Part shown: in pieces, positions 38,229 to 40,905 of the stretch
Layout: each line of letters opens with the position of its first letter
How positions within the stretch are numbered: the first letter of the stretch is position 1
Origin: Arenicellaceae bacterium
GTDB taxonomy: Bacteria; Pseudomonadota; Gammaproteobacteria; Arenicellales; Arenicellaceae
Assembly (NCBI GenBank): GCA_029246505.1
Contig: JAQWNC010000023.1
Location: 1 to 57,823, forward strand
Direction of reading: 5' to 3'
Length of the DNA: 57,823 bases
Notes under the pieces: generated by a model
What the model was told of the DNA's origin: nothing
What the model saw: only the letters and a program-made list of their open reading frames with translations
The model's database searches: none
Translations under genes and position numbers: made by a program

Positions 38229-38726
38229 CTAACCAAATATACCCATGGTATGTGCTGCGGTACCTGAAATCATAAAAAACAACATTGGAATTGATAACAT
38301 TGTATTTGTTCGGGAGGCGAGAAAAGCGATTCTGGCCGCCTTAGCCTTCTCTTCATCACTGGCCTCTACCAATCCAAGCACTTTCTTTTGGTTTGGCCAA
38401 ATTAACACCCATACGTTAAACAACATTATCGTACCCATCCAGGCGCCAATTCCCATTGGTGCCGCGGCGCCACTTAATGTAAATGCGGCATGCAGTCCCC
38501 AAGACCCTCGCTCAAGGTACACAGCACCAGTCAACCATGTGACGGCAGCTGCCATACGGAACCAGAGCAGTGCATTTGGTGCGATATGCTTGGTAATACC
38601 CGCAGCCGTACCATCGGCTTTAGCTTTCCCCAGCCCAGGCACTTGAATAAAATTAAAATAATACAACAAGCCAATCCAGGTGACGCCAGCAAGGACGTGT
38701 ATCCAACGATCAATAACGAGTTCCAT
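38229..38726 (-). CDS. Urate hydroxylase PuuD-like membrane protein (Urate_ox_N domain)
   Basis: 165 residues, about four membrane helices. It matches the membrane N-terminal domain of PuuD-type proteins (PF06181): RWIHVLAGVTWIGLLYYFNF, HIAPNALLWFRMAAAVTW and GIGAWMGTIMLFNVWVLIWPNQKKVL. Full PuuD proteins add a cytochrome c domain; this one lacks it, so urate oxidation is not implied. A GGGG lies 7 bases before ATG 38726. A 30-residue membrane peptide is encoded 65 bases upstream on the same strand. Lone Urate_ox_N proteins are common in proteobacteria; function is uncertain, a membrane haem or redox role being inference. Confidence 0.78.
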   Translation of the reverse strand: MELVIDRWIHVLAGVTWIGLLYYFNFIQVPGLGKAKADGTAAGITKHIAPNALLWFRMAAAVTWLTGAVYLERGSWGLHAAFTLSGAAAPMGIGAWMGTIMLFNVWVLIWPNQKKVLGLVEASDEEKAKAARIAFLASRTNTMLSIPMLFFMISGTAAHTMGIFG

Positions 38727-38791: not shown

Positions 38792-38884
38792 TTAACCAAC
38801 CAATGCCCGCGCAACGTAATAAAATACAACAGTAAGTACGACCCCAGCGATAATAGTGCCTACAATTGAGTCTAATGGATTCAT
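38792..38884 (-). CDS. 30-residue single-helix membrane peptide (small ORF)
   Basis: ATG at 38884-38882, stop TAA at 38794-38792. A textbook ribosome binding site, GGAGG at 38894-38890, sits 5 bases upstream of the ATG. The peptide begins MNPLDSIVGT and is one hydrophobic helix (IIAGVVLTVVFYYVARAL) with a short polar N-terminus and one Arg near the end. That is the architecture of small membrane-complex subunits such as CydX or CcoQ types, but I recognise no specific family. It lies 65 bases upstream of the PuuD-like gene on the same strand and is probably co-transcribed with it. No strong competing frame. Confidence 0.72.
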   Translation of the reverse strand: MNPLDSIVGTIIAGVVLTVVFYYVARALVG

Positions 38885-38894
38885 TTTTGCCTCC

Positions 38895-39217
38895 TTTTCG
38901 ATAACAGCTTATATGGATAAAAAGTTCTAGAAAAAGTGAGTGTAGCATAGCTATACAACATAAATTTAGACCAAAATTCTACTAATACAATCTCGCATAC
39001 CAACCGCAACAATTCGTTAATAGAGCTACAATTCACCAGCACCGTTTATGCCTGGTATAGGCTCCTTGCGTACATATAAATCAATCCCGCGCAATAATAT
39101 CAATTCAACGTTTAATCAACAGGCTTGACCACACCGGCCGACTCAAAGACACTAAGCGCCGCTAAGGTTGGTTTATAATGCAAACTAAAATATAGGCAGT
39201 AATAATCAAGGTTAAAT
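38895..39217. promoter_or_regulatory. Divergent promoter region between the small membrane peptide and argG
   Basis: About 320 bases that must carry the argG promoter (plus) and that of the small peptide/PuuD-like unit (minus). A near palindrome, TAGCATAGCTA, with TGTA/TACA flanks, lies at about 38942-38958. I did not see a convincing ARG-box pair, RNA motif or gene. AT-rich sequence occurs in 39041-39120. Confidence 0.4.
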
Positions 39218-40491: not shown

Positions 40492-40905
40492 ATGCTCTGG
40501 GTAAAAGCATTACATATTATTTTTATGGTGACTTGGATGGCAGGCATTTTTTACCTGCCACGGCTTTTTGTCTACCATTCCATGACCGAGAACCAGGCCA
40601 GCAAAGATCGGTTCAAAATAATGGAGCGTAAGCTATATCTTGGAATTATGATGCCGGGCATGATTCTAACGCTAGTTTCCGGCCTGTATTTATGGCTAGG
40701 TTATGGCTTTAGCGGTGGCTGGCTGCACGCTAAGCTCACCCTGGTTTCGCTATTAATCGCATACCATTTTTGGTGTGGCGCTACGGTAAAACTGTTCCTC
40801 AGCGACAACAACGAACGGTCTCATAAATTCTATCGAGTGGTAAACGAGTTACCTGTGCTATTACTATTCGCAATCGTTATTCTGGTTGTAGTTAAACCTT
40901 TCTAA
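40492..40905 (+). CDS. hemJ: Protoporphyrinogen oxidase HemJ (UPF0093)
   Basis: 137 residues, four membrane helices. HemJ oxidises protoporphyrinogen IX to protoporphyrin IX in the inner membrane in many proteobacteria that lack HemG or HemY. Conserved: [20 protein letters not shown] (His near residue 8, Arg near 24), [24 protein letters not shown] (conserved Lys) and YHFWCG. With hemE and hemF it supplies haem synthesis in this window. It starts 66 bases after argG. Confidence 0.9.

Follow-up and report, generated by a model that had tools for sequence, protein, structure and literature searches.

The membrane urate oxidase PuuD consists of eight helices and a cytochrome c, and single-helix proteins such as CcoQ/FixQ and KdpF serve as accessory subunits of membrane complexes. 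CydX, the small subunit of cytochrome bd, is described as a tiny single-helix protein that is encoded beside its large membrane partner (PMC5322542). For the short DUF989 proteins, Doniselli et al. (2015; PMC4562309) describe four helices, which they identify with helices I, II, V and VI of PuuD, and their account of these four says nothing of a further helix, whether in trans or fused. Here, we describe a 30-residue microprotein that is encoded just upstream of such a short protein in a 57,823-nucleotide stretch of DNA from an Arenicellaceae bacterium (contig JAQWNC010000023.1; the window in the following), and that is most likely an overlooked fifth helix of the short DUF989 proteins. To the reading that the frame is a genuine protein-coding microgene, and its product a subunit of the short Urate_ox_N protein, we assign a probability of roughly 0.9. 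No description of the microprotein was found in the open-licence literature on DUF989, COG3748 or small subunits, as far as titles and the openings of abstracts reveal.

The microgene occupies positions 38792..38884 on the minus strand, with its ATG at 38884 and its TAA stop ending at 38792, and its 30 codons specify MNPLDSIVGTIIAGVVLTVVFYYVARALVG, a single hydrophobic helix. A Shine-Dalgarno sequence, AGGAGG, is read at 38890..38895 on the same strand, 5 nt before the ATG. An earlier note on this DNA had pointed to a 30-codon ATG frame with GGAGG 5 bases upstream and had called its product one transmembrane helix, and both statements hold, as the frame and its start signal are present and the product contains a 17-residue stretch with a mean Kyte-Doolittle hydropathy above 1.8. 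The frame is more than chance would bring, because the window contains 301 frames of 25-45 codons that open with ATG, of which only three have a strong Shine-Dalgarno sequence (AGGAGG, GGAGG or AGGAG) 4-10 nt upstream of the start, and the 38792-38884 frame is the only one that also has a helix by this hydropathy measure. The partner gene at 38229..38726 starts 65 nt downstream on the same strand and encodes a short Urate_ox_N (DUF989) membrane protein of 165 aa, which matches Pfam PF06181 with 76.4 bits (cut-off 26.9). The match is partial, with its best stretch at 161-241 of 295, and it is the sole PF06181 match found in the organism's own 2.64-Mb genome (97.5% complete), so that the neighbour is indeed the lone Urate_ox_N membrane protein that had been proposed. 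The partner has no cysteine at all and therefore no CXXCH cytochrome c.

The peptide is conserved in relatives. A tblastn search of 60 relatives and the own genome, with a confidence limit of E<0.03, gave homologous frames at 20 non-self places in 19 genomes, 54-77% identical, and each of the 20 is followed immediately, on its own strand, by a PuuD-like frame or is fused to one; none of the nine weaker hits that were fetched has a PuuD-like frame downstream. GGAG stands no more than 22 nt before the start in 20 of the 21 rows shown (the exception is L014). The separate microgenes are 25-36 codons long, and 117 distinct ones start with ATG (112) or GTG (5); 100 of these 117 have a Shine-Dalgarno motif at the proper distance, as against 7.4% of 1170 random ATGs. 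The pooled pN/pS is 0.21 (35 pairs, each sequence used once), compared with 1.13 and 2.62 in the shifted frames, and the differences at codon positions 1, 2 and 3 number 135, 53 and 337. Because pN/pS is low and the differences are concentrated at the third codon position, the microgene is, judged from these alignments, under purifying selection at the protein level. Conservation of the frame and the ratio of synonymous to nonsynonymous changes had both been suggested as ways of checking the proposal, and both speak for it.

For the analysis of linkage, loci were collected with a PuuD-like profile alone and the peptide was not used for selection, since a peptide-based collection of loci would be circular. 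The module, separate or fused, is present at all 80 named loci collected in this way, which are the best 80 of 595; 79 of them were called by script, and L051 by eye (MKYFLDSLGWTVFWGVVLTLILYNVVKYALQ). The expectation that the peptide would turn up at other Urate_ox_N genes was thus borne out within these 80. In a class sample of 369 genomes (peptide profile at E<1e-3, partner at E<=1e-12), the peptide was found in 91 genomes and the partner in 125; all 91 peptide genomes also carry the partner, and none carries the peptide alone. The 34 remaining genomes with a partner were inspected singly: 17 have the module at the C-terminus of the partner (G063 included, where the frame is interrupted), nine have divergent N-terminal helices that we take as fusions, two a divergent separate microgene, two are full PuuD with cytochrome c, two are remnants, and one is cut by the contig end. 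Altogether, 119 of 120 evaluable partner genomes have the module, 91 by profile and 28 by inspection; in G124 (L261), the partner is present and inspection of the locus found no module. The remnants, G117 (L281) and G253 (L282), retain only an 81-aa frame that is the last third of the partner, no microgene was found at either locus, and in G357, which belongs to the same genus (g80), microgene and partner are both intact; the remnant frames sit between what we take to be pyrC-like and argD-like sequence. The window genus itself is uninformative, as in G001, its single other genome, a contig end truncates the partner.

Three architectures are found. In the split form, the microgene lies 1-105 nt upstream of the partner at the partner-selected loci, and this is the arrangement of the window, of many gammaproteobacteria and of the named betaproteobacterial loci, including Methylophilus, Thiobacillus, Gallionella and Methylopumilus, with L085 and L086 (fused, Methylophilaceae) as exceptions. 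Methylophilus methylotrophus (L091) and Thiobacillus denitrificans RG (L054) are laboratory strains with the split form. In the N-terminal fusion, which occurs in many genomes of the class, the module precedes the core in one frame, as in L029 from the window's order (MNPLRSVRGTIIGGTVLAVIIAAATSGININVGSLIVWFHVLAGITW...). Loci from other classes of the phylum are N-fused in 37 of 38 cases, L162 being split, and these 38 loci are presumably alphaproteobacterial. One genome of the window's order contains both L029 (G026:C179) and a split pair, L004 (G026:C8); as this assembly has 730 contigs and 5% contamination, either of the two may be foreign. The C-fused form consists of the core, one extra helix and then a GKxGPMASVxGVIHxSxxLTxV-like segment, and it makes up one well supported clade that includes the window-family relatives L252-L254. 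HHalign aligned the microprotein profile with this C-terminal module at 95.9% over 28 columns and with three other helix segments of the C-fused proteins at no more than 1.1%. HMMER hits at the C-terminal end were obtained in nine of 17 C-fused proteins (eight above 5 bits, four above 12), and 25 of 39 divergent N-fused proteins scored above 5 bits; in the controls, reversed sequences reached at most 4.6 bits, and the only one of 1281 neighbouring frames above 5 bits contains a microgene (L224). In the C-fused L270 (G063:C40), a single in-frame TGA stop stands before the last core helix, which may be a sequencing error, a pseudogene or recoding.

The state count covers 257 distinct cores besides the window, with several loci representing the same genome found twice. 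The script called a protein N-fused when it had a hydrophobic N-terminal stretch, the motif not being required, and in the divergent N-fused rows L257, L259, L263 and L264 the stretch was counted by hydrophobicity, with homology to the module not shown. L051, L089, L162, L166, L256 and L185 were assigned by eye, and L075, which the script had falsely called fused, was set to split; L280 (contig edge), the remnants L281 and L282, and L270 (interrupted frame) were left out, and L001, L002, L119 and L142, which are the window itself, were dropped. The set A3 comprises 113 of the 119 listed N-fused proteins, L147, L149, L163, L170, L171 and L233 being omitted besides L075. Since the same helix is fused to the partner in relatives, these natural fusions argue for a subunit role of the microprotein. 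The microprotein is a new family, which occurs as the NPLDS microprotein or as the N- or C-fused module, and for which we propose as defining features the motif M(K)NPL.S..GT and a short DUF989 protein to which it is linked or fused; the window peptide has both.

How often the architecture has changed was read from trees. In a 98-row maximum-likelihood tree (thinned at 75% identity; L251, L277 and rows with fewer than 130 residues omitted), the labels split and N-fused need 11 changes each, and the supported branches force six and five changes, respectively; the bootstrap trees need 10-12 changes between split and fused, and a quick tree of 258 rows needs 14 state changes in all. Counted on unrooted trees, these changes may be gains or losses of the fusion. 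Because the two pieces have been repeatedly fused or split in evolution, we regard these trees as strong evidence that they work together. The idea of the earlier note that the peptide is an overlooked partner of the PuuD-like protein is thus supported by purifying selection, by the linkage in 91 of 91 genomes and by the natural fusions, and the physical association of the two is what we infer from these.

The fusions also suggest how the helix may be placed. In the PuuD topology, the core is N-out and C-out, with cytoplasmic loops I-II and V-VI (PMC4562309). A helix in front of an N-out core should therefore run from inside to outside, and a helix behind a C-out core needs one bridging helix for the same direction, which is what the C-fusions have; their extra helix would thus bring the module into the membrane in the same direction. 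The AF2 model of the natural N-fusion L029 (pLDDT 94.6, pTM 0.87) has four core helices plus the module, which forms a helix at residues 3-5, a break at 6 and the module helix at 7-26, and the model of the C-fusion L252 (pLDDT 88.8, pTM 0.86) has the bridge at 160-178, a helix at 182-185, a break at 186 and the module helix at 187-207; the two models thus agree in detail. We propose that the microprotein is a subunit, consisting of one helix, of the Urate_ox_N (DUF989) protein that is encoded 65 nt downstream, and it may be a structural helix supplied in trans. The N-terminus of the module helix (NPLDS) would be cytoplasmic and its C-terminal end periplasmic, the helix would pack on the four-helix core and thereby complete and stabilise a five-helix complex, and Asp5 would lie near Arg132 of the partner at the cytoplasmic face; jointly, these docking details have about an even chance of being right. 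The charges of the microproteins themselves speak against the N-in orientation: those of 29 or more residues have a mean net charge of -0.21 at residues 1-8 and of +0.86 from residue 23 on, so that the positive-inside rule alone does not favour N-in for them, and those of 25 residues have a net charge near zero at both ends.

The contact between Asp5 (codon at 38870..38872, minus strand) and Arg132 (codon at 38331..38333, minus strand) is proposed from covariation, and in the topology of PMC4562309, Arg132 falls in the loop between PuuD helices V and VI. Corrected mutual information was calculated for 22 module and 162 core columns, with 104 split and 72 N-fused pairs treated apart. The two coupling maps correlate with a rho of 0.42, which may come partly from column variability, and the control with rolled core columns gave a mean of 0.01, a standard deviation of 0.08 and a maximum of 0.21. 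With both maps combined, the top pair is formed by module position 4 (Asp5, with the N of NPL counted as 1) and the Arg132 position, a pair chosen after looking at all 22 x 162. Across 188 loci, some of them near-copies, an acid at the Asp5 position goes with Arg at the Arg132 position in 106 of 106 cases, a neutral residue goes with Lys or Arg there in 37 of 43, and Lys or Arg at the Asp5 position goes with Lys or Arg in none of 39. When the tree is taken into account, there are seven supported independent pairs, among fused rows, that differ in the basic module residue, and the positive core residue is lost in 5.8 of them on average, with none in the opposite direction (median p 0.03); split rows alone yield one or two supported pairs, and acid/Arg over all rows three, which is too few. 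Corrected for the tree, these sequences thus lend modest support to the Asp5/Arg132 covariation, and this support stems from fused rows. Two more of the top pairs, 12 with 141 and 20 with 149, would advance in parallel along the last core helix, as expected if the module packs on helix VI in parallel. However, helix VI is not enriched in the 30 strongest couplings, of which it has two (5.0 expected), and it is the variable loop before helix V that is enriched, with nine (2.8 expected).

We also weighed other explanations for the conserved frame. The frame immediately precedes the partner, with gaps of only 1-105 nt at the partner-selected loci, and this is also where a leader peptide would be expected, which would be translated only to set downstream expression and whose amino-acid sequence would be irrelevant. 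However, a pN/pS of 0.21 speaks for selection at the amino-acid level, and a leader would leave unexplained that in many relatives the peptide belongs to the partner's own chain, at one end or the other, so that we consider this reading very improbable. The length and hydrophobicity of the peptide would also suit a small hydrophobic toxin of a type I toxin-antitoxin system, and two relatives match NCBIfam NF033608 (Fst) weakly, with E 0.25 and 0.024 and 11.2 and 14.4 bits. Both scores are under the family cut-off of 26 bits, however, the window peptide has no match, and a toxin would hardly be linked to, and fused with, one membrane protein; we give this reading next to no weight. Equally little credit goes to a CydX- or CcoQ-type oxidase subunit that merely adjoins a PuuD-like gene: size and single helix are similar, but the window peptide has no Pfam match at E<=5, none of 18 relatives matches the CydX or CcoQ families at E<=1, and in the confident cases the neighbour is the Urate_ox_N gene. 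Weak matches of the peptide or its relatives were obtained to PHROG 26070 (E 0.005) and to five Pfam families, the latter in one or two of the 18 relatives (E 0.04-0.15).

A different question, which leaves the subunit reading untouched, is where the module came from. It may be helix VIII of PuuD, detached from the main chain. On this reading, the C-fused proteins preserve the helix order of PuuD (I, II, V, VI, VII, VIII), and the other two forms, split and N-fused, would have come about when VIII was relocated and VII was lost. The C-fused proteins are collinear with full PuuD (HHalign 99.5%, 198 columns), an alignment in which the bridge falls on VII and the module on VIII; yet its last stretch carries no confidence, the microprotein profile, compared with 20 PuuD, matched nothing at helix VIII and scored best, insignificantly, near helix III (4.2%), and the tree is unrooted. 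We therefore hold this refinement to be tentative and rather doubtful. More speculative still is the wider picture in which short DUF989 proteins would be five-helix assemblies with one mobile helix, a relocated PuuD helix VIII, that has shifted many times in evolution between three genetic states (own microgene, N-terminus, C-terminus after a bridging helix) and keeps its direction in the membrane as well as, in one chain or in two, its charge-compensated contact; if true, this would be a natural circular permutation by gene fission. Both readings are weakened by the split rows, which by themselves yield too few pairs for the covariation, and by the missing enrichment of helix VI.

To return to the complex that microprotein and partner would form, we draw no conclusion on its function from the fold searches. 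For the N-fused model, Foldseek gave no match at E<=0.001, and a second fold search listed four-helix bundles at Z 9.5-13.6, values common for helical bundles, including cytochrome b6, STEAP1, STEAP4 and designed di-haem proteins; the resemblance to haem-b bundles is within chance level for helical bundles. The first core helix contains a histidine that does not vary in either the N-fused or the C-fused alignment, and PDB sequence searches gave no match for the partner or the peptide. Urate oxidation as in PuuD is unlikely because the partner has no cytochrome c and because HIUase and OHCU decarboxylase were not found, the own genome (97.5% complete) having no match to PF00576 or PF09349. The next gene downstream is an argD-type aminotransferase (PF00202; 36936..38117, minus strand), followed by argF, an ornithine carbamoyltransferase (PF02729/PF00185; 36021..36932, minus strand), and both are frequent neighbours: among the loci with downstream sequence, the split ones have the two together downstream in 41 of 83 cases, the N-fused ones in 34 of 84, the C-fused ones in three of 17 and the LPH-type ones in none of five, and L261 does not have them. 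This adjacency may reflect old synteny rather than function. The opposite strand of the window carries argG and a UPF0093 gene, presumably of the HemJ type. The latter encodes a membrane protein at 40492-40905 (+), just past argG and near the short DUF989 gene, and the UPF0093 protein and the short DUF989 protein both start with an H......TW.G-type helix.

A divergent short DUF989 paralogue was seen at seven loci, namely L249, L250, L271, L278, L279 and the plasmid records L314 (NZ_CP029178.1) and L315 (NZ_CP073765.1), in a conserved cluster with the order pqqA (24 aa), pqqD, pqqE, an LPHD-type microgene, short DUF989 and a serC-like aminotransferase. In L315, a gene annotated as dihydroorotate oxidase follows, and similar sequence was recognised by eye in L249, L271, L278 and L279. 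The LPHD-type microgene occurs in six of the seven loci; the gene table of L314, which is incomplete, does not list it, and it is missing in L315, where no microgene was found in the 71-nt gap. Neither plasmid record has pqqB or pqqC annotated within 2 kb, and in both the short DUF989 protein is annotated as urate hydroxylase PuuD. The gene order hints that this cluster may be a PQQ-like, peptide-derived cofactor route that uses the membrane protein.

A widespread family, the short DUF989 proteins, thus appears to have been described without one of its helices, which was overlooked because its gene, of a kind passed over by gene finders, is only 25-36 codons long in many lineages. Cloning a split-type member alone would omit a subunit, and the pairing of microprotein and partner gives a handle on what the complex does. 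The three architectures furthermore represent a natural experiment on how a transmembrane helix leaves and rejoins a protein.

Compared with the described systems, the window partner resembles the short DUF989 proteins of PMC4562309, as it has a partial PF06181 match, four core helices (as modelled in the fused relative), no cytochrome c with its CXXCH motif and a gene context outside purine metabolism, and it differs from that account of four helices by the additional one. Its core is homologous to that of PuuD, with which the C-fused short forms are collinear, whereas a CXXCH is present in all 20 full-length PuuD fetched and absent from the window partner. CcoQ/FixQ and KdpF have different partners, and the window peptide matches no Pfam family at E<=5. 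The earlier note had likened the peptide to CydX and CcoQ, and this comparison holds as an analogy of tiny single helices and not as a sequence relation, as none of the 18 microprotein relatives matches the CydX family at E<=1. CydX genes stand beside cydAB, and here the neighbour is a Urate_ox_N gene, in the window as in the confident cases. If the subunit reading is right, the microprotein would work much as CydX does, as a tiny single helix encoded beside the gene of its large partner; unlike CydX, it belongs to another partner family, and its helix also occurs as part of the partner, joined to one end or the other.
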